A stretch of 64,000 bases of DNA, taken from positions 1 through 64,000 of the forward strand of contig NZ_BONF01000030.1 of the NCBI RefSeq assembly GCF_016862575.1, in the 5' to 3' direction. Within the stretch, counting starts at the first letter, position 1. Each line of letters begins with the position of its first letter. Positions 51,561 to 63,061 of the stretch are shown in pieces. Origin of the DNA: Catellatospora bangladeshensis (GTDB lineage Bacteria > Actinomycetota > Actinomycetes > Mycobacteriales > Micromonosporaceae). Under the pieces are notes generated by a model. It searched no databases. It had not been told where the DNA came from and saw nothing but the letters and a program-made list of their open reading frames with translations. A program made the translations under genes and the position numbers.

Positions 51561-52703
51561 TCAGCCGCGGGTGTGGTGGCCGAGCATGTGGACCTGGCCG
51601 GTGCCTTCGACGATGTCGCCGACGTGCCAGCATTCGACGCCGCGGCCGGTCAGGAGGGCCATGGCGCGGTCGGCGTCGGCGGCGGAGACCACCGCGAACA
51701 TGCCGACGCCCATGTTGAAGGTCGACTCCAGGTCGGCGGTGTCGATGCGGCCCTTGCGCTGGATGAGGTCGAAGATGGGCTGGGGGGCCCAGGTGGAGCG
51801 GTTGACGATGGCGTCGACGTGCTTGGGAAGCACGCGGACCAGGTTGCCGGGGATGCCGCCGCCGGTGACGTGCACGAGTGCGTGCACCTCGCACTCGGCG
51901 ATCAGGGTCAGGCAGTCCTTGGCGTAGATCTTGGTCGGGGTGAGCAGCTCCTCGCCGAGGGTGCGCTGGTCGCCCAGGTCCTCGATGACCGAGTCGAGCT
52001 TGAGCCGGGCCTGGCCGAGCAGCACGTGGCGGACCAGCGAGTAGCCGTTGGAGTGCAGGCCGGAGGAGCGCATCGCGATGACCGCGTCGCCGACCTGGAC
52101 CCGCTCGGCGCCCAGGATCGCGTCCTCCTCGACGACGCCCACGCCGTTGGCGGAGAGGTCGTACTCGTCCGGGCGCATCAGGCCGGGGTGCTCGGCGGTC
52201 TCGCCGCCCAGCAGCGCGCAGCCGGCGTACCGGCAGCCGTCGGCGATGCCCGCGCCGATCTCGGCGATGCGGTCCGGCACGACCTCGCCGCAGGCGATGT
52301 AGTCGAGCAGGAACAGCGGCTCCGCGCCGCACGCGACCAGGTCGTCGACGACCATCGCGACCAGGTCGATGCCGACCGTGTCGTGGATGTTCATCTGCTG
52401 CGCGATGGCCAGCTTGGTGCCCACGCCGTCGGTCGACGAGGCCAGCACCGGGCTCTTGTACTTCGACGTGTCGAGCTTGAACAGGCCGGAGAAGCCGCCG
52501 AGGCCGCCCAGCACCTCGGGGCGGTGCGTACGCGCGACCTTGTCCTTCAGCATCTCCACGGCCCGGTCGCCGGCGTGGATGGACACGCCCGCGTCGGCGT
52601 AGGTGACGGTGCGCCGCCGGTTGGTGCTGCCCTCCGCCGTCCACAGCTGACGGTTGCCGTTCTCCGGCTGCCCGGAGACGGGGCGCTCGGTCACGTGCGT
52701 CAC
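51561..52703 (-). CDS. purM: AIR synthetase
   Basis: PurM closes the imidazole ring (FGAM to AIR). The 380-residue protein has YADAGVSIHAGD, SSTDGVGTKLAIA, LGGETAEHPGLM and HVTGGGIPGNLVRVLP. The first 40 residues before the core are a basic extension. GTG at 52701-52703 has AGGAGA upstream; the longer frame would lose it. It follows purF by 70 bases on the minus strand and is likely co-transcribed with it. Confidence 0.96.
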   Translation of the reverse strand: MTHVTERPVSGQPENGNRQLWTAEGSTNRRRTVTYADAGVSIHAGDRAVEMLKDKVARTHRPEVLGGLGGFSGLFKLDTSKYKSPVLASSTDGVGTKLAIAQQMNIHDTVGIDLVAMVVDDLVACGAEPLFLLDYIACGEVVPDRIAEIGAGIADGCRYAGCALLGGETAEHPGLMRPDEYDLSANGVGVVEEDAILGAERVQVGDAVIAMRSSGLHSNGYSLVRHVLLGQARLKLDSVIEDLGDQRTLGEELLTPTKIYAKDCLTLIAECEVHALVHVTGGGIPGNLVRVLPKHVDAIVNRSTWAPQPIFDLIQRKGRIDTADLESTFNMGVGMFAVVSAADADRAMALLTGRGVECWHVGDIVEGTGQVHMLGHHTRG

Positions 52704-52773
52704 GGTTCTTCTCCTCTTTGTGCGCGGCACCGGCTTTTCAGGGAAGGGTGTCGGTGCCGTGACGAGTGGTGCT

Positions 52774-54294
52774 TTAGGACCGGCTCAGTTCCGTCGTCGG
52801 CGCTGAGGGCTGGTCGCCGGTGCGCTCCTCGGGCCCGACGCGGCGGCCGACCCCTTCGAGCACGTGCTTGCCGATGAGGTTGGCGGCCGGCAGCTTGATC
52901 GGGTACTCCCCGTCGAAGCAGGCCCGGCACAGGCGGTTCTTCGGCTGCTCGGAGGCGGCGATGAGCCCCTCGAGCGACACGTAGCCGAGCGAGTCGGCAC
53001 CGATGGAGCGGCGGATGCCCTCCAGGTCCGTGCCGTTCGCCAGCAGTTCGGCGCCGGTGGCGAAGTCGATGCCGTAGAAACACGGCCACTTCACCGGCGG
53101 AGAGGAGATGCGTACGTGAACCTCCAGCGCGCCCGCCTCGCGCAGCATGCGCACGATGGCGCGCTGCGTGTTGCCGCGCACGATGGAGTCGTCGACCACG
53201 ACGAGGCGCTTGCCCCGCACGTTGTCGCGCAGCGGGTTCAGCTTGAGCCGGATGCCCAGCTGACGGATGGTCTGCGAGGGCTGGATGAAGGTCCGCCCGA
53301 CGTAGGCGTTCTTCACCAGGCCCATCCCGTACGGGATGCCGGAGGCCTCGGCGTAGCCGATCGCGGCCGGCGTGCCCGACTCGGGGCTCGGGATGACCAG
53401 GTCGGCCTCGACCGGGTGCTCCTTGGCCAGGCGACGGCCGATCTCCACCCGGGTCGAGTAGACGTTGCGGCCGGAGATGGTCGCGTCCGGCCGGGCCAGG
53501 TAGACGTACTCGAACAGGCAGCCCTTGGGGTCCGGCGCGGCGAAGCGCTGCGAGCGCAGCCCGTACTCGTCGATGGCGATCAGCTCGCCGGGCTCGACCT
53601 CGCGGACCACGGACGCGCCGACGATGTCCAGCGCGGCCTGCTCGCTCGCGACGACCCAGCCGCGCTCCAGGCGGCCGAGCATCAGCGGGCGCACGCCGTG
53701 CGGGTCGCGCGCCGCGTAGAGGGTGTTCTCGTCCATGAAGACGAAGCTGAAGGCGCCCTCGACGGTCGGCAGCACCTCCATCGCGGCGGCCTCGACGGAC
53801 AGGTCGGGCCGGCCCGCCAGCAGCATGGTGACCAGGCCGGTGTCGTTGGTCGAGCCCTGCCGGTCCATGCCCAGCTCGTCGGCGCGGCGGGCCAGGTCGG
53901 CGGTGTTCACCAGGTTGCCGTTGTGGGCCAGCGCGATGGTGGTGCCGGCGCTGGTCGACTGCAGCGTCGGCTGGGAGTTCTCCCAGGTCGAGTCGCCGGT
54001 GGTCGAGTAGCGCGCGTGCCCGATCGCGAGGTGCCCGCGCAGGCTGGCCAGGGTCGGCTCGTCGAAGACCTGGGCGACCAGGCCGATGTCCTTGTAGACC
54101 ACGACTCCGGAACCGTCGCTGACCGCGATCCCCGCCGCCTCCTGGCCGCGGTGCTGCAGTGCGTACAGGCCGAAGTAGGTGAGCTTCGCGACCTCTTCAC
54201 CAGGGGCCCAGACACCGAAGACGCCGCATGCGTCTTGCGGGCCTGGCCGGTGGGGGTCGAGTTCGTGGCTCAACCGGCCGTCGCCTCGGGGCAC
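52774..54294 (-). CDS. purF: Amidophosphoribosyltransferase
   Basis: PurF catalyses the first step of purine synthesis. The 506-residue protein has a 22-residue propeptide, after which Cys23 (DACGVFGVW) would become the N-terminal nucleophile. LVVVDDSIVRGNTQRAIV is the PRPP loop. Four Cys (in KGCLFEYVY, PCFYGID and RLCRACF) stand where the Bacillus-type enzyme holds its 4Fe-4S cluster. GTG at 54292-54294 has AAGGAG six bases upstream. Confidence 0.97.
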   Translation of the reverse strand: MPRGDGRLSHELDPHRPGPQDACGVFGVWAPGEEVAKLTYFGLYALQHRGQEAAGIAVSDGSGVVVYKDIGLVAQVFDEPTLASLRGHLAIGHARYSTTGDSTWENSQPTLQSTSAGTTIALAHNGNLVNTADLARRADELGMDRQGSTNDTGLVTMLLAGRPDLSVEAAAMEVLPTVEGAFSFVFMDENTLYAARDPHGVRPLMLGRLERGWVVASEQAALDIVGASVVREVEPGELIAIDEYGLRSQRFAAPDPKGCLFEYVYLARPDATISGRNVYSTRVEIGRRLAKEHPVEADLVIPSPESGTPAAIGYAEASGIPYGMGLVKNAYVGRTFIQPSQTIRQLGIRLKLNPLRDNVRGKRLVVVDDSIVRGNTQRAIVRMLREAGALEVHVRISSPPVKWPCFYGIDFATGAELLANGTDLEGIRRSIGADSLGYVSLEGLIAASEQPKNRLCRACFDGEYPIKLPAANLIGKHVLEGVGRRVGPEERTGDQPSAPTTELSRS

Positions 54295-54486
54295 CTGCTG
54301 CTCCTTGCGCTTGTCGCTTCAGTAGCTGGTTGATGCCCTGCTCGCCAAAGCCGGCATCGATGGTGTGTGTCGGCGTCGGGCGGCGATTGCCGCCGCAGCT
54401 CAGTGTACGTGACCGGCAGGGGTGGACACCCCGGTGCCCGGCCCGCGCGACACGTGACTGAATCCAGGGTTACCAGTCTGCCAGGC

Positions 54487-54843
54487 CTAGACGATCGGGA
54501 AAAGAGCCCCGATATCGGAGCGAATGCCACTGGCCCGAATCCGCCCATCGGCCACCGCCGCCGCCCAATCCACGCGTCCGGCGGCTAGCTGAAGAAACGT
54601 GACCGGATCGGTCTCGACCAGGTTCGGGGGCGTACCACGGGTGTGCCTTGGCCCTTCGACGCACTGAATCGCACCGTATGGGGGAACCCGCACCTCCACC
54701 GAACGGCCAGGAGCGGTCGTCGCAAGATGTGCCAAGAGTGCCCTAACCGCATCGCGAAGCGTCAAACGTTCCGGGACCCGGCCTGTGGCCAGGGAGTCGA
54801 GGGCTTCGGCCACCGCCGGGGATATATCAGGCGAGGGGGACAT
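54487..54843 (-). CDS. SCP_3-type sterol carrier family protein
   Basis: The 118-residue protein is the small sterol-carrier-like protein that accompanies purF in many actinobacteria (TLRDAVRALLAHLATTAPGRSVEVRVPPYGAIQCVEGPRHTRG in its middle; TDPVTFLQLAAGRVDWAAAV towards the end). ATG at 54841-54843 has no ribosome site and may be leaderless. It lies 192 bases upstream of purF on the same strand. Its function is unknown. Confidence 0.8.
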   Translation of the reverse strand: MSPSPDISPAVAEALDSLATGRVPERLTLRDAVRALLAHLATTAPGRSVEVRVPPYGAIQCVEGPRHTRGTPPNLVETDPVTFLQLAAGRVDWAAAVADGRIRASGIRSDIGALFPIV

Positions 54844-54998
54844 AAGCGGACGATACAAGATGACTTTTACTCATTATGTACGGGCCCTGGGTCGCGCAAT
54901 CCTTCCTTCGCAAGGCATAGTTGCGGGCGGTGTATTCCCGCAGCGCCCCCCACACCCCGCTCGCTGTGGGATATCGAGGAGCTTGGAAGGCGGTGGCC

Positions 54999-56999
54999 GT
55001 GACTACCCAGCGACGGTCCTGGTTGGCACGCGTCGGAGTGGTAGCGATGGTGTCGCTCGGCACACTCGTCGGCGTCTCCGCTCCCGCTTCGGCGGCCACC
55101 ACGGTCACGGCAGGCTCGGTCTCCGTCGAGGCCGGCGGCAGTGAGAAGTCGGTCACCGTCACGGTGACGGTCGGCAACGACGGCCCGGACCAGGATCTGA
55201 CGAACGTCGAGATCAAGATCGATAACCTGCCTGGCGGAGTGAGCTGCACCTCCGGTTGCAACACGCCTTTCACTGTGGTCAAGGGCTCAAGCGCCCCGCG
55301 CGTGGTCAAGATCAAGGCCAGCTCCAGTGCCGCTGCCGGTAGCTCGTCGGCGTCGGTGCGGGTCGGCGATCTGACTACCAACATGCAGATCACCGTGACC
55401 GAGAAGCAGGCCGAGACGACCGGCGAGATCGCCGGGCAGGTGGTGGACGTCTCCACGGGCAAGACCATCGGTGGGGCGATCGTGATGCTCTCGGACGGTG
55501 ACTCCAAGGAGTTCACCAAGACGGCCGACAGCGCGGGCCGCTTCAGCTTCAAGCCGACCGCCAGCAACCCGATCGCGCCCGGCATGATCGTGATCACCGC
55601 GCAGAAGGACCCGTACGAGCCCAGGAGCATCAACTTCAACCTCGGCAACGGCCAGAGCAAGAAGGACGTCCGCGTCTCCATGACGAACACGGCGGCCACG
55701 GCGTCGCCGACCGCCGAGGCGACGCCGAGCGACCTGGCCAGCGCGCTGCCCGAGGAATCGGGTCTCACCGAGGAGAGCCCCGGTGAGGCCGTGGACGTCT
55801 CCGGCGACCAGAAGGACGAAGAGGGCGGCCTGGACAGCATGACCTGGATCATGATCATCCTGGGCGGTCTGCTCGTGGCGCTGGGTATCGGCGCGATCGT
55901 GCTGCTGGTGATGAAGCGCGGCGGCGACGACGATGACGACGACGAGGATGACGAGGACGACGACGACGAGCCGGTGCGCGGCCGTCCGGGCGTGCGTCCC
56001 GGCCAGCCCGTGCGCGCCGGAGCGGGTGCGGGCGTCTACGGCGGCGCCGGTGGCGGCACCTACGGCCGTCCCGCCGACCCGACCATGGTGGCCCGGCCCG
56101 GCGCGGGTAACGACGCGACCGTGATGCACCGCCCCGGCGAGTACGGTGGCGTGCCGCAGCAGCGCGGCGCCCAGCAGCCCTACGGCTCCCCGGCCGCCAC
56201 CCAGCAGTACGGCGGCTACGGCTCGCCGGTGGCCCCGACCAGCGGTTACAGCGGCGGCCAGCCCAGCTACGACCAGGCCGGCTACGGCGCTCCGCAGGGC
56301 GGTTACGGCTCGCCCGCGGCGCCGACCAGCGGCTACGGCAACCCGGCACCGACCAGCGGCTACGGCAGCCCCGCCCCGACCAGCGGTTACGGCGGCAGCC
56401 CGGCCGGTGGCTACGGCTCGCCCGTGGCTCCGACCAGCGGCTACGGCGGCGGCCAGCCCGGCTACGGCGACCAGGGCGGCTACGGCCAGCAGCCCGGCGG
56501 GTACGGCCAGCAGGGCGGCGGCTACGGTGCCCAGCAGGGCGGCTACGGCCAGCAGCAGGGCGGCTACCAGGGCCAGTACGACGAGCCCACGCACTACGCG
56601 GGCCCGACCTCGGGCGGCAGCTACGGCGCGAACCAGGGCGGCTACGGCCAGGACCAGCAGGGCGGTTACGGCCAGCAGCAGGGCGGGTACGGGCAGGACT
56701 CGTACGGCGCCCAGCAGGGCGGCTACGGCCAGCAGCAGGATCCGTACGGCAGCCAGCAGGGCGGTTACGGCCAGCAGCAGAACGGCTACGGCCAGGACTC
56801 GTACGGCACTCAGCAGGGCGGCTACGGCCAGCAGCAGGATCCGTACGGCAGCCAGCAGGGCGGGTACGGCCAGCAGCAGAACGGCTACGGCCAGGACCCG
56901 TACGGCAGCCAGCAGGACGGCTACGGCCAGCAGAACGGCTACGGCGACGACCGGCGCGGCAACCGCGGCGACCGCCGGCTCGACTGGCTGGACGACTGA
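54999..56999 (+). CDS. Membrane protein with FUS-like Gly/Tyr/Gln-rich cytoplasmic tail
   Basis: The 666-residue protein has a signal peptide ([21 protein letters not shown]), a CARDB/Ig-like extracytoplasmic domain, a carboxypeptidase-regulatory-like domain ([20 protein letters not shown]), one helix at about residues 283-305 ([20 protein letters not shown]), an all-acidic run of about 15 Asp/Glu, and a cytoplasmic tail of about 330 residues built of GYGSPxAPTSGYG and QQGGYGQQQ(D/N) repeats. GTG at 54999 has GGAAGG eight bases upstream. The tail resembles the low-complexity domain of human FUS; phase separation is inferred. It is not otherwise recognised. Confidence 0.8.
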
Positions 57000-57016
57000 C
57001 CCGCCCCACTTGCCAC

Positions 57017-57064
57017 ATCAAAGCTCCCGGCACGCTGTTCCGACAGCATGGCGGGAGCTTTGAT
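57017..57064. terminator. Hairpin terminator before the RiPP locus
   Basis: ATCAAAGCTCCCG at 57017-57029 pairs perfectly with CGGGAGCTTTGAT at 57052-57064, with an inner GCTGT-TCCG-ACAGC. It follows the FUS-like gene by 17 bases and lies before the radical SAM gene. Confidence 0.8.
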
Positions 57065-57119
57065 CATGGAAAAAGGGCGCGCGGTTTGCTGGAATGGGCG
57101 GGTGGCCGGTGTTGGCGGC

Positions 57120-58205
57120 ATGCGGGGGCTTGCCTCCGTGCCGGGGTACGTCGTGATGCAGCCGACGACGCTGTGCAATCTGGACTGCGTCTACTGCTAC
57201 CTGCCCCTGCGCGCGGCGGACCGGCGGATGCCGGTGGCGGTGGCCGAGGCGGTGGCGGCCGACGCGAACGTCTGGGCGGCCGCGGGCCGCTTCTCCGTGG
57301 TCTGGCACGGCGGTGAGCCGCTGGCGGCCGGCCGCGAGCACCTGACGGCGCTGATGGCCCCGTTCGCGGCGGGCGTGGAGCAGCACGTGCAGACCAACGC
57401 CACGCTGGTCGACGACGCGTGGTGCGAGTTCTTCGCCGCTCGCGGGGTGCGGGTGAGCGTGAGCGTGGACGGCCCCGAGGACCTCAACGGGCAGCGGGTG
57501 TCGCGCGCGGGGCGGCCGGCGTACGACCGGATCGAGCGGGGGATCGGGGCGCTGCGGCGGCACGGCCTGCCGTATGCGGCCCTGTGCGTGGTCAGCGACC
57601 CTCGGCCGGGCCTGGCGGCCCGGCTGTACGCGTACTTCCTGGAGCTGGGCTGCGACACGCTCGGCGTCAACATCGAGGAGCGCGAGGGGGTCAACGAGCG
57701 CGCCAACGGGCATGACGCGGCCGCCGTGCGGGCCTTCTGGGCCGAACTGGCCGCGGCATGGCGCGCCGACCCGCGCATCCACCTGCGCGAGCTCGAGTGG
57801 AGCCTGCGCTACCTGGGCGCGGTGCTGGACGGCACCGACGGCGGGCTGCTGCCGCGCACGCTGGACCCCATTCCGACGATCGGGTATGACGGCGCGGTGG
57901 TGCTGCTCTCGCCGGAGCTGGCCGGGTTCCACGATCCGGTGTACGGCGACTTCGCCAGCGGTAACGTGCTCACCAGCCCGCTGTCGGCGCTGCTGGGCAG
58001 CGCTTCGACCGGCTGGGTGCCGGAGTTCCTCGACGGGATCGAGGCGTGCCGCGCGTCCTGCCCGTACTTCGGCTTCTGCGGTGGCGGGCACGCCGCCAAC
58101 CGCTACTTCGAGCACGGACGGTTCGACGGCACGGAGACCGAGCACTGCCGTAACAGCAAGATCAACCTACTGGAGGGAGTGCTCGACCATGTCCGACGAC
58201 ACTGA
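57120..58205 (+). CDS. amcB: Cyclophane-forming radical SAM/SPASM peptide maturase
   Basis: The 361-residue enzyme has CNLDCVYC at residues 19-26 (Cys19, 23, 26), which holds the radical SAM 4Fe-4S cluster, and a SPASM-type C-terminus with CRASCPYFGFCGGG and a later EHCR. It resembles maturases that join an aromatic residue to a neighbouring side chain. ATG at 57120 is preferred over upstream ATGs at 57048 and 57066, since that stretch lies in or next to a terminator and has weak codon bias, though 57120 lacks a good ribosome site. The precursor gene overlaps its end by 17 bases. The AmcB name is from recall of the family. Confidence 0.85.
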   Translation: MRGLASVPGYVVMQPTTLCNLDCVYCYLPLRAADRRMPVAVAEAVAADANVWAAAGRFSVVWHGGEPLAAGREHLTALMAPFAAGVEQHVQTNATLVDDAWCEFFAARGVRVSVSVDGPEDLNGQRVSRAGRPAYDRIERGIGALRRHGLPYAALCVVSDPRPGLAARLYAYFLELGCDTLGVNIEEREGVNERANGHDAAAVRAFWAELAAAWRADPRIHLRELEWSLRYLGAVLDGTDGGLLPRTLDPIPTIGYDGAVVLLSPELAGFHDPVYGDFASGNVLTSPLSALLGSASTGWVPEFLDGIEACRASCPYFGFCGGGHAANRYFEHGRFDGTETEHCRNSKINLLEGVLDHVRRH

Positions 58206-58383
58206 CCGCCTGGCCGACCGGATCCTGGACGCCCGCGCCGAACTCGCTCCCCTGCTGGAGGAGGCGCGGCTGGCACGGTTGGCCCGTTCTGAAGGGCCAG
58301 GCACGGACGGCGGCGCCGTCTGTGCCTGGAACCACTTCGAGAACATCCCGACCTTCTTCAACTGGAACAACCGGCCGCGCTGA
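58189..58383 (+). CDS. amcA: Multi-cyclophane RiPP precursor peptide
   Basis: The 64-residue peptide has a leader rich in Asp, Leu, Ala and Arg (residues 1-39) and a core of quite different composition at about 42-64, containing AWNHFENIP and TFFNWNNRPR. Four aromatic-X-polar triads can be read: WNH (47-49), FEN (50-52), FFN (56-58) and WNN (59-61), which are the sites on which three-residue cyclophanes form in related systems. ATG at 58189 follows GGAGGGAG. It overlaps the maturase gene. No protease or transporter gene is adjacent. The ring positions are inferred. Confidence 0.8.
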   Translation: MSDDTDRLADRILDARAELAPLLEEARLARLARSEGPGTDGGAVCAWNHFENIPTFFNWNNRPR

Positions 58384-58403
58384 GCGGCGGCGTCACAGGA
58401 AGA

Positions 58404-58652
58404 TCAGCGGCGGGGAGTCCAGTCCTTACCGTCGTCGTCATCGTCATCGTCGTCGACGGCGTAATTCGCGTACGGGTCGTACGGATCGCGCTCGTCGTCG
58501 TCGTGATCCTCGGCAACAGTACTGCCGCTGCCGCTGCTGAGCTCGTTACCTCCGAGCTCGCGCTGCAAGGCGGCGAGGTCGGTGTTCGGGGAGTGGTACT
58601 TCAACTCCCGGGCCACCTTAGTCTGCTTGGCCTTAGCTCGGCCGCGCCCCAT
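58404..58652 (-). CDS. DUF3073 family protein
   Basis: The 82-residue protein starts MGRGRAKAKQTKVARELKYHSPNTDL, the basic head of DUF3073, and has an all-Asp run near the C-terminus (VDDDDDDDDGKDWTPRR). The family is widespread in actinobacteria and near purine genes; its role is unknown. ATG at 58650-58652. It is convergent with the RiPP precursor gene. Confidence 0.9.
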   Translation of the reverse strand: MGRGRAKAKQTKVARELKYHSPNTDLAALQRELGGNELSSGSGSTVAEDHDDDERDPYDPYANYAVDDDDDDDDGKDWTPRR

Positions 58653-58858
58653 GGCCGACCCCCTCGCACATGAATGACGGGGCTACCCGAAGGCGGGCCC
58701 CGATGACGTCAGACATCTCTCGTGGGTCATACGGTACATGGGAGGAGGGCACTTCGGCATCTCGGGTTACCGGGTGTCTGACAGCACATCGGAACCTGTC
58801 CGTTTTATGACTGGTAAGGAGTATATCGCTCCCCAGTAATAACGGGCCACTCGACGGA

Positions 58859-58903
58859 CGAAGCCCCCGCTCGCGCTGTTTCAGCAGCTCGGCGGGGGCT
58901 TCG
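58859..58903 (-). terminator. Hairpin terminator after amino acid dehydrogenase
   Basis: CGAAGCCCCCGC at 58859-58870 pairs perfectly with GCGGGGGCTTCG at 58892-58903, with an inner GCTG-TTT-CAGC. It has the same inner layout as the terminator at 57017. The 58653-58858 stretch holds nothing else that can be recognised apart from the DUF3073 upstream region. Confidence 0.85.
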
Positions 58904-58916
58904 ATCATGAAAGGGG

Positions 58917-59978
58917 TCAGACCCGAATGGTCCGCAGACGGCCCACCTCGGCGATGCGCTGCTCGGCGAGGCGGTCCGCCGCGGCGGCCGGAGAGATGCC
59001 CTCGGCGTCCGCCGTTTCCAGGATTCGCTTCGTCGTGTCGTAGATCTTGGTGGCACGCAGCTTGGCCCGCTCGAAGCTGAACCCGTCGATCTCGTCCGCG
59101 ACCTGGATCACGCCGCCCGAGTTGACCAGGTAGTCGGGCGCGTACAGGATGCCGCGGTCGAGCAGCAGCTTCTCGATGCCGCCGTGCGCGAGCTGGTTGT
59201 TGGCCGCGCCGGCCACGATCTGGGCCTTCAGGGCGGGCACCGTGTCGTCGTTGAGCGCGCCGCCCAGCGCGCACGGCGCGTAGACGTCGATGTCGCCGGC
59301 GACCAGCGCGGTGGCGTCGGCGACCAGGCTGATCTGCGGGTAGGTGGCCCTGGCCCACTCCAGCGCCTTCGGGTGCACGTCGGTCGCCACGACCTCGGCG
59401 CCGTCCTCGATCAGGTGAGCGGTCAGGTACTTGCCGACCTTGCCCAGCCCGGCCACGCCGACCCGGCGGCCCTTGAGCGACGGGGTGCCCCAGCGGTGCT
59501 CGGCCGCGGCGCGCATGCCCTGGAAGACGCCCCAGGCGGTGAGGACCGACGAGTCGCCGGCGCCGCCGTACTCGACGCTGCGGCCGGTCACGAACTTCGT
59601 CTCGCGGGCCACCACGTCCATGTCCTGGACGTAGGTGCCTACGTCGCACGCGGTGTAGTAGCGGCCGCCGAGGGACTCGACGAACCGGCCGTACGCCCGC
59701 AGCAGCTGCTCGGACTTGATCTGCTCCGGGTCGCCCCAGATGACGGCCTTGCCGCCGCCGAGGTCGAGCCCGGCGAGGGCGTTCTTGTACGCCATACCCC
59801 GGGAGAGGTCGAGCACGTCGTGCAGCGCCTCCTCCTCCGTGGCGTACGGGTAGAAGCGCGTGCCGCCCAGGGCGGGCCCGAGCGCCGTCGAGTAGATGCC
59901 GATGATGGCCTTCAGGCCGCTGGCCCGGTCCTGGCAGAACACGACCTGTTCGTGACTGCCGTCGGTGAATACGCCCAC
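58917..59978 (-). CDS. Leucine/valine dehydrogenase
   Basis: The 353-residue NAD enzyme deaminates branched-chain amino acids. [15 protein letters not shown], the catalytic Lys in [13 protein letters not shown] and [10 protein letters not shown], the Rossmann strand [13 protein letters not shown] and [13 protein letters not shown] are typical of the Leu/Val/Phe dehydrogenase group. Streptomyces Vdh is the closest recognised type, but specificity cannot be told. GTG at 59976-59978 has GGAG upstream. Confidence 0.93.
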
Positions 59979-60102: not shown

Positions 60103-60930
60103 GTGCCGTCACAGTTCGCCGCGTACCTGAGGGTCTACGAGCCGCTCACCGCGTTCGCGCCGGAACGTGAACGATTCTGGCGCCGCTACGTGGACGAGGG
60201 GCGCGCCATCGGCGTGTCCGACGGGCCCGGCCGCCAGCGGGCGACCGTGCTGGAGGCGCTCGGTGCGGGCTGGTCGCGCCTGCCCGACCTGCCCGATGAG
60301 GCATATGTCATGCAGGGGCTGACCGGCCAGGCCGAGGTGCCCCTGGTCTGCCCGTGGAACCTGCGGGTTCGGGTCGCCGAGGCCGCGCTGCAGGCCCGGG
60401 ACGGGGTGCCGCAGGTGCTCGCCGACGCCTTCGTGCCGCCGGTGCTGGTCGACCTGGCGCAGACCGTGGTCGGGCAGACCCGGGCCGAGGACCGGATGCA
60501 CGAGCAGGTGGCCACCTGGGGCGTGCCGCTGCGCTGGTTCGTGCTGGTCTCGCCGGCCGAGCGGGACCTGGTGCTGGAGCCGTCGCGCCGGGTGCTGCGC
60601 TACCGCACGGAGATCGGCAAGGCCCGGCAGCGGGCGCACAAGGGGCTGCGGGTGCTCCGCCGCACCCTGGGCGACGTGCCGATCACCGACTCGCTGCGGG
60701 AGACCGCGCGCTGGCTGGAGTCGTTCCACCCGGGGTCGGTGATCGAACTCGACTACGGCGGCCTGACCGCGCTGCTGTCGGAGGACGCGCTGCGCGACGA
60801 CGACTCGGTCGAGTTGGTCGCCACGGGCCTGGCGGGGCTGGAACGGGAGGACGGCGACGCCGCCACGGCCGCGTATGAGCAGCTCGTGCAGCGGTGGCGG
60901 GCCATCCAACTGCTGGAGCGCAGCAACTGA
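60103..60930 (+). CDS. Conserved hypothetical protein upstream of bldC
   Basis: The 275-residue protein is not recognised. It has a mixed helical composition, with LRWFVLVSPAERDLVL, VLRYRTEIGKARQRAHKGLRVLRRTLG and a C-terminal helix AYEQLVQRWRAIQLLE, and no signal peptide or membrane helix. GTG at 60103 has GGGAGG eight bases upstream. Its place before bldC, 219 bases away, is a sign of conserved neighbourhood only by inference. Confidence 0.8.
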   Translation: MPSQFAAYLRVYEPLTAFAPERERFWRRYVDEGRAIGVSDGPGRQRATVLEALGAGWSRLPDLPDEAYVMQGLTGQAEVPLVCPWNLRVRVAEAALQARDGVPQVLADAFVPPVLVDLAQTVVGQTRAEDRMHEQVATWGVPLRWFVLVSPAERDLVLEPSRRVLRYRTEIGKARQRAHKGLRVLRRTLGDVPITDSLRETARWLESFHPGSVIELDYGGLTALLSEDALRDDDSVELVATGLAGLEREDGDAATAAYEQLVQRWRAIQLLERSN

Positions 60931-61428: not shown

Positions 61429-62106
61429 TCAGGGCACCAGCGCGCCGTCGCGGAGGGTGACGACGCGGTCGGCCATGTCCATCAGGGCCGAGTCATGGGT
61501 GGCGACCAGGGCGGTCATGCCGCGGGCGTGCACCAGGGCGCGCAGCAGGTCCATGATCTGGCGGCCGGTCTCCGAGTCGAGCTGGCCGGTCGGCTCGTCC
61601 GCGATCAGCAGCTGCGGGTCGTTGGCCAGCGCGCGGGCCACCGCCACGCGCTGCTGCTGGCCGCCGGACAGCTCGTACGGCCGCTGGTTGGCGTGCGCGC
61701 CGACGCCGACCAGCTCCAGCAGCACCGCCACCCGCTGGTCCCGCTCGGCCGGGCGCACCTTGGCCAGGCGCAGCGGCACGCCCACGTTCTCGGCCGCCGA
61801 CAGGATCGGCACCAGCCCGAACGACTGGAACACGAAGCCGATCACGTCCCGGCGCAGCGCCACCAGCTGCGGCTCGGCCGCCGAGGTGACCTCCTGCCCG
61901 GCGATGAAGACCTTGCCCGAGGTCGGCCGGTCCAGCCCGCCGATGATGTTGAGCAGCGTCGTCTTGCCCGCGCCCGAGCGGCCGCGCACGGCGACCAGCT
62001 CGCCGCGCGCGGCGGTGAACGAGACGTCGCGCACCGCGTGCACGACCTTGCCCGCCCGGCCGAAGTCGCGGGACACGTTCTCGACCCTGACCAGCTCGTC
62101 AGCCAC
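61429..62106 (-). CDS. ABC transporter ATPase (LolD/MacB type), second ATPase
   Basis: The 225-residue ATPase has Walker A GRSGAGKTT, Q-loop VFQSFGL, signature LSGGQQQR, Walker B LLIADEPTGQLD and H-loop VATHDSAL. GTG at 62104-62106 with GGAGG upstream is the start; an earlier start in the previous gene is less likely. It overlaps the other ATPase by 8 bases. Two separate ATPases serve the permease, which suggests a heterodimeric pair. Confidence 0.95.
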   Translation of the reverse strand: MADELVRVENVSRDFGRAGKVVHAVRDVSFTAARGELVAVRGRSGAGKTTLLNIIGGLDRPTSGKVFIAGQEVTSAAEPQLVALRRDVIGFVFQSFGLVPILSAAENVGVPLRLAKVRPAERDQRVAVLLELVGVGAHANQRPYELSGGQQQRVAVARALANDPQLLIADEPTGQLDSETGRQIMDLLRALVHARGMTALVATHDSALMDMADRVVTLRDGALVP

Positions 62107-63061
62107 GGCGCACCTCCACACGGTCGGACTCCAGGGTGAGCTTCACCCGGTCCTTGAGCTCCAGTTCCTCCACGAACGCGCCGGGCAGCTGCATACGCCC
62201 GGCCCGGTCGAGCACCGCGTACTCCTCGCTGACCAGCTCGGTGCCGCCGTCGGCGGTGGCCCGCGCGGTCCGGCGCACCTCCGAGGCCAGCCGGCCGTCG
62301 CGGATCGCCACGGTACGCCGCACCTGCGTGGCCACGTTCGGGTCGTGGGTCACCACGACCACCGTCACGCCCAGCTCGGCGTTGATCGTCTGCAGCGCGC
62401 CGAACACCTCGGCCGCGGTCGACTCGTCCAGCTCGCCGGTCGGCTCGTCGGCGAACAGCACCTCCGGGTCGTTGGCCACGGCCAGCGCCACCGCCACCCG
62501 CTGCTGCTCGCCGCCGGACATCTGGTCCGGGCGGCGGTCCGCGCAGTAGCCGACGCCGACCATCTCCAGCAGCTCCGCCGCGCGCTCGCGGGCCCTGCGG
62601 CCGGACCGGGTGCCGGCCAGCCGCATCGGGGTCACCACGTTCTCCAGCGCGGTCAGGTACGGCAGCAGGTTGCGGCCGGTCTGCTGCCAGACGAAGCCGA
62701 CCATGTGCCGCCGGTACGACAGCCGCTTCTTCGCCGACATGGTGAGCAGGTCGTACTCGCCCACCCGGGCGATGCCCGCGGTCGGCACGTCGAGGCCGGA
62801 CAGGATGTTCAGCAGGGTCGACTTGCCGGAGCCGGAGGCGCCGACGATGGCCAGCAGCTCGCCCCGGTCCACCACCAGATCGAGCCCCTGCAGCGCGACG
62901 ACCTCGACGCCCTCGGTCTTGTAGATCCGCACCAGCCCGTCGCACACCAGGTGGCCGCGCAGCCGGTCGGCGCCGCCGGCCCGGTCCGCGGCCCGCTGCG
63001 CGGCACGGGCCTGCAGCGTGGCGAGGTCCGGCGGCGCGATGGTCTCGTCAGTGGTCGACAT
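62099..63061 (-). CDS. ABC transporter ATPase with long C-terminal extension
   Basis: The 320-residue ATPase has Walker A GASGSGKST, Q-loop VWQQTGR, signature MSGGEQQR, Walker B LFADEPTGELD and H-loop VVTHDPNV. After the ATPase core there are about 60 extra residues (VSEEYAVLDRAGRMQLPGAFVEELELKDRVKLTLESDRVEV) that look like a SpoVT/AbrB-type or small beta domain, unusual in this family. It overlaps the permease by one base and the next ATPase by eight. Confidence 0.93.
   Translation of the reverse strand: MSTTDETIAPPDLATLQARAAQRAADRAGGADRLRGHLVCDGLVRIYKTEGVEVVALQGLDLVVDRGELLAIVGASGSGKSTLLNILSGLDVPTAGIARVGEYDLLTMSAKKRLSYRRHMVGFVWQQTGRNLLPYLTALENVVTPMRLAGTRSGRRARERAAELLEMVGVGYCADRRPDQMSGGEQQRVAVALAVANDPEVLFADEPTGELDESTAAEVFGALQTINAELGVTVVVVTHDPNVATQVRRTVAIRDGRLASEVRRTARATADGGTELVSEEYAVLDRAGRMQLPGAFVEELELKDRVKLTLESDRVEVRRG

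Follow-up and report, generated by a model that had tools for sequence, protein, structure and literature searches.

Gene organization at the amcBA locus

The window, a 64,000-nucleotide stretch of Catellatospora bangladeshensis DNA, carries on its + strand a radical SAM gene, amcB, whose 3' end is overlapped over 17 bases (58189–58205) by the 64-codon gene amcA (Table 1). The maturase frame, the overlap and the 64-residue peptide that the original prediction had described as a two-gene locus are all present in the sequence. The full AmcA peptide is MSDDTDRLADRILDARAELAPLLEEARLARLARSEGPGTDGGAVCAWNHFENIPTFFNWNNRPR, and it contains WNH, FEN, FFN and WNN within 15 residues (47–61), as had been reported.

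Two in-frame starts are available for amcB. The GTG is preferred because it aligns with the probable starts of orthologues, and the gene probably spans 57102–58205 (367 aa). Comparisons with named loci refer throughout to the best 80 of 216 hits. In 79 of these 80, an in-frame amcA ATG lies inside the 3' end of amcB, which makes translational coupling of amcA to amcB probable.

A consensus scan of positions 56900–59000 listed no promoter and no terminator. By eye, two similar GC-rich inverted repeats flank amcBA (57020–57065 and 58858–58905), both absent from the terminator-scan list. Immediately 5' of amcB, the window encodes a protein with a long Gly/Tyr/Gln-rich tail (54921–56999); at two other loci (L031 and L077) a frame end resembling the counterpart of this protein lies a few bases 5' of amcB.

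Table 1. Features of the amcBA locus and of the second amcB copy in the same genome
Feature	Position	Strand	Basis
amcB, radical SAM peptide cyclophane maturase (GTG start probable)	57102..58205	+	NF041718 match, 361-aa form
amcB start options: GTG 57102 (367 aa), ATG 57120 (361 aa)			
CX3CX2C radical SAM cluster motif, C25/C29/C32 (367-aa numbering)	57174..57197	+	alignment
C-terminal cysteines C316, C320, C326, C349	58047..58148	+	alignment
amcA, precursor peptide, 64 aa	58189..58383	+	NF041722 match
amcA leader, residues 1–42	58189..58314	+	81-sequence alignment
amcA core AVCAWNHFENIPTFFNWNNRPR, residues 43–64	58315..58380	+	conservation
Triad 1, W47-N48-H49, ring doubtful	58327..58335	+	divergent precursors
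Triad 2, F50-E51-N52	58336..58344	+	divergent precursors
Triad 3, F56-F57-N58	58354..58362	+	divergent precursors
Triad 4, W59-N60-N61	58363..58371	+	divergent precursors
Second AmcB, same genome	G000:C37:40076-41152 (L124:8029-9180)		525 bits, NF041718

Family identity and architecture of AmcB

Curated models exist for both enzyme and precursor, so that the kind of system, even its subfamily, is already named. AmcB scores 496.1 bits against NF041718 AmcB (cut-off 425), and AmcA scores 106.7 bits against NF041722 AmcA_3a (cut-off 65), a subfamily whose gene is also expected to adjoin amcB, as the overlap provides. These searches, of the maturase against peptide-maturase families and of the peptide against AmcA models, had been proposed as checks, and they uphold the class call of an AmcB-kind cyclophane maturase with an AmcA precursor. 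Subfamily 3a shares with the window both passed cut-offs, the gene pair and the multi-triad core, and nothing separates the two; core position 57 is Phe in the window and in 7 relatives vs Tyr in 73 (best 80 of 216).

It is extremely improbable that the enzyme is instead a maturase of the GrrM/OscB, FxsB (presumably MscB) or XyeB (which we take to be XncB) type. TIGR04261 GrrM/OscB does rank second among the models, but its 224.3 bits fall below its cut-off of 310, as do FxsB (81.8, cut-off 370) and XyeB (55.6, cut-off 450), and all three identities were rejected in favor of AmcB. The 3-CyFE triceptide maturases XncB, OscB/GrrM and MscB/FxsB do resemble the window system in being radical SAM enzymes acting on aromatic-x-Asn triads, going by the accessible part of the source (PMC11002830).

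The enzyme had been described as a radical SAM/SPASM maturase; the radical SAM half of this description stands and the SPASM half holds only in part. A Pfam search of AmcB returned Radical_SAM alone (E 0.1), with SPASM unmatched. The conserved cysteines were followed in an alignment of 125 rows (120 distinct proteins, partial rows included, one locus entered twice as L089 and L124), drawn from 157 AmcB hits after dropping L138, which has a stop in its span, and omitting another 32 loci (within the range L090–L125, L124 excepted). C25, C29 and C32 are Cys in 123/125 rows, L139 and L142 being gapped there. At C316, C320, C326 and C349 the cysteine is kept in 123 or 124 rows, the exceptions being the partial rows L141 and L142. 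Canonical SPASM enzymes have a seven-Cys pattern and two auxiliary clusters; AmcB has four conserved C-terminal cysteines. Because of this count, and by comparison with anSME, the four are likely ligands of a single auxiliary Fe-S cluster.

The fold model of AmcB, built from an alignment of the window protein and 32 chosen relatives, reaches pLDDT 93.2 and pTM 0.90. The nearest solved folds are ChlB complexed with its precursor (TMq 0.76) and then anSME (0.72). ChlB with ChlA (PDB 9gm3, 9gmc), solved with the precursor leader, is the closest solved entry in both sequence and fold, yet its identity to AmcB in the fold alignment is about 21%. Among the results listed by one literature search there was no paper on ChlB; in the titles and abstract openings listed by the literature searches, which left most subscription journals uncovered, none on AmcA or AmcB appeared. 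The new and interesting part of this locus is its conservation pattern.

Chromosomal place and inheritance

The surroundings of amcBA are strongly conserved among the best 80 of 216 loci. Downstream lie DUF3073 (79/80), LeuDH (80/80) and bldC (78/80, the remaining two being short stretches). On the other side purF is found in 79/80, on the amcB strand in 73 and on the opposite strand in 6, namely five Catellatospora loci and Catelliglobosispora koreensis. In these six the purF–purM block (51561–57000 in the window) is reversed relative to amcBA when compared with the 73 other named loci. The closest relatives by AmcB within the 80 are the five Catellatospora loci (83–86% identity).

AmcB distances correlate with those of its neighbors in the same best 80 of 216: r is 0.832 for PurF (79 loci), 0.858 for LeuDH (80) and 0.864 for the gene at 60103 (78), and 0 of 499 permutations reached the observed r for any of the three. 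With a fixed place and distances in step with its neighbors, amcBA looks like a resident, largely vertically inherited pair of the family.

The lack of an adjacent protease or exporter, pointed out in the original prediction, is confirmed: neither occurs among the conserved neighbors tested in the best 80 of 216 loci. The MacB-type exporter at 62 kb had been offered as a possible partner. A match to this ABC gene (61429–62121) lies near amcBA in just 12 of the 80 loci whose flanks were examined (best 80 of 216), which is too few for a conserved partner, and the gene was dropped as a candidate AmcA exporter.

Conservation of the AmcA core

In a shuffle test, 1 of 100,000 AmcA shuffles contained four non-overlapping aromatic-x-N/D/H triads within 15 residues. 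Conservation is the stronger test. Across 81 sequences (the window and the best 80 of 216 hits), 21 of the 22 core positions are invariant; all 80 relatives share residues 43–64, the exceptions being position 57 and, in one of them, an additional C-terminal Gln. The 81 cores are encoded by 59 DNA versions, and their likeness is therefore due to constraint on the protein. Just upstream of the core, the same 81 loci hold 77 different 30-residue stretches. Seven leader residues (L19, L22, A26, A29, R30, R33 and E35) are invariant in all 81 and would fit a recognition helix.

Expressed as uncorrected proportions, the core has pN 0.0051 and pS 0.331 (pN/pS about 0.015), the leader helix pN 0.231 and pS 0.550 (0.42), and AmcB pN 0.135 and pS 0.434 (0.31); the helix was chosen through its conserved pattern, and its value is biased towards seeming conserved. 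Statistics on the 81 sequences lean to close relatives, since these come from the best 80 of 216 hits; the pattern count in 354 genomes given below is wider.

Distribution across genomes

At E 1e-60, AmcB is matched in 313/354 genomes of the family, in 58/121 relatives and in 2/396 genomes drawn from the phylum, the two being the window's own and one of the same family. NF041722 matches 51 of the 121 relatives, 45 of them over the cut-off. As a protein query the 22-residue core finds matches in 297/354 family genomes. An exact degenerate DNA pattern of the core (F or Y at position 57, Ser allowed for two Arg, last base free) occurs in 292/354 family genomes and 24/44 genera, so that 62 of the 354 are without the exact core; the reversed pattern had no match among the genomes listed.

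The 41 family genomes (of 354) unmatched at this threshold indicate that amcB is dispensable in some lineages, with the qualification that G052, among the 15 genomes examined, is interrupted by a contig end. DUF3073 was found in 14 of these 15 genomes, at 15 places, G067 having none. In L186, L188, L189, L195 and L198, purM stands near DUF3073 and amcBA is missing. In L185, amcB is cut by the contig end; in L187, L190, L191, L192, L193, L194, L197 and L199, purM was not found in the stretch examined; and G070 contributes a second DUF3073 place, L196.

Triads and number of rings

All four triads are kept in 81/81 sequences of subfamily 3a (the window and the best 80 of 216), and they are partly lost in a wider group of divergent precursors, so the conservation of triads that had been named as a check holds within the subfamily and only partly beyond it. 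The wider group comprises 12 loci with the same neighborhood (L126–L133, L135–L137 and L139), here treated as natural variants. Triad 4 retains both the aromatic residue and the third-residue Asn in 12/12. Triad 3 keeps the aromatic residue in 12/12, with Gln (7), Glu (4) or Asn (1) in third place. Triad 2 reads F-x-D in 9/12 and F-x-T in 2/12 and is missing in L131. Triad 1 lacks its aromatic residue in 4/12 (L131, L133, L136 and L137); elsewhere it reads W-x-P (4), W-x-A (2) or W-x-D (2). The L131 core, in the same neighborhood, has just the last two triads (TYYNWNNRSR).

Known enzymes of this kind link Trp, Phe, Tyr or His to the β-carbon of residue i+2, and the third-residue acceptors named in the accessible part of the source are Asn, Asp, Arg, Ser or Ala, a set that does not include His, Gln or Glu (PMC11002830). 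Set against this 3-CyFE/triceptide triad, FEN, FFN and WNN of the window core fit and WNH does not; Gln or Glu occupies the third position of triad 3 in 11 of the 12 divergent precursors.

On these patterns the likely rings are, best first, W59–N61, F50–N52 and F56–N58. W59–N61 is best supported because it agrees with both measures, conservation in the variants and the acceptors named in that part of the source. The F56–N58 ring would fit within subfamily 3a, its acceptor changing elsewhere. A W47–H49 ring is possible and is the weakest of the four. Two to four rings are possible for AmcA; where up to four had been proposed, triads 4 and 2 stand up well in the 12 divergent precursors, the acceptor of triad 3 varies, and WNH is the least kept.

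The chances are about even that AmcA carries at most three rings, with W47-N48-H49 not crosslinked and serving, together with Cys45, another task such as metal binding or a disulfide. The loss of the triad 1 aromatic residue in L131, L133, L136 and L137 and the Pro or Ala ending in six others of the 12 speak for this, as does the invariance of Cys45 and His49 in 81/81 sequences (the window and the best 80 of 216). Against it, W47 and N48 vary no more than the other core positions in the same 81, and invariance of W47, N48 and H49 implies that all three matter in some way. A usual triad, W-T-D, may also occupy the triad 1 place in L129 and L135. The core of these two, RWTDVFTTQFTEFSNRPR, allows two alignments, which leaves their triads 1 and 2 uncertain; W-T-D could equally be assigned to triad 2, and if it belongs to triad 1 it favors a ring there.

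Proposed pathway and biological role

Building on the family match, the conservation, the fixed place and the gene overlap, the locus can with good confidence be assigned, in both identity and kind of chemistry, to the AmcA/AmcB family of RiPP pathways, here made up of two genes, the ring chemistry being taken by analogy from the family. AmcB would bind the helical AmcA leader and generate a 5'-deoxyadenosyl radical from SAM. In several core triads it would connect the ring of the aromatic residue i with the β-carbon of residue i+2, and the product would be a multicyclophane peptide. Removal of the leader, if any, would fall to a protease encoded elsewhere.

Because of the frozen core, the fixed place and the wide presence, a conserved physiological role for the product (signal, cofactor-like or metal-handling) appears more likely than a diversifying antibiotic. 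Mycofactocin and PQQ are RiPPs that serve basic physiology. Tentatively, and at a little less than even probability, the AmcA3a product may be a housekeeping multicyclophane, an endogenous small molecule with a near-frozen core, kept at one place in most of the family and acting within the cell or as a shared signal; its invariant Cys45/His49 head may contribute chemistry other than the cyclophanes. A near-invariant core at one place, where the conserved neighbors tested include neither a protease nor an export gene, makes a RiPP role in basic physiology testable.

AmcA could also give rise, through the same chemistry, to a secreted antibiotic-like cyclophane exported by a general transporter, which we consider unlikely, at roughly one chance in several. 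Darobactin and dynobactin are radical SAM crosslinked peptide antibiotics according to the accessible parts of their sources (PMC9055067 and PMC11002830, respectively), and AmcB gives weak matches, below cut-off, to the DynA and DarE models. A core that does not change would likewise fit an antibiotic whose target stays the same. An exporter, a protease and an immunity gene are nevertheless absent among the conserved neighbors tested in the best 80 of 216 loci, and a near-frozen core in 292/354 genomes weighs against the antibiotic role.

Related AmcA subfamilies and other RiPP loci

AmcA subfamily 3b (NF041723) occupies the same chromosomal neighborhood as the window pair, with AmcB 63–73% identical, and differs by cores such as GWRPFEDAFPTFYQFTNRPR. 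Applied to four divergent peptides, the 3b model scored two over its cut-off and two below. A second copy in the window's genome, on contig C37, belongs to subfamily 1 (NF041721): its AmcB likewise passes the NF041718 cut-off, and its precursor likewise has four triads, ends in KFDNRPTWDNGSKGFDNRPTWDNWSKSKK and scores 71.8 bits against AmcA_1 (cut-off 40). It differs from the window pair in its FDN/WDN core, in an AmcB 44% identical to that of the window and in its neighbors, an HTH protein and a pentapeptide-repeat protein. Of another 17 AmcB loci, located elsewhere, a pattern search showed 13 to have a precursor downstream in which FDN/WDN-type triads recur.

In two genomes of one genus (L189 and L195), the interval from purM to DUF3073 contains a graspetide-like precursor, followed by an ATP-grasp-like frame recognized by eye, so that one RiPP system sits where relatives carry another. 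TIGR04186 gives 19.6 bits on the L189 peptide, below its cut-off of 25, and 28.4 bits on that of L195, the only one of the two to exceed it.
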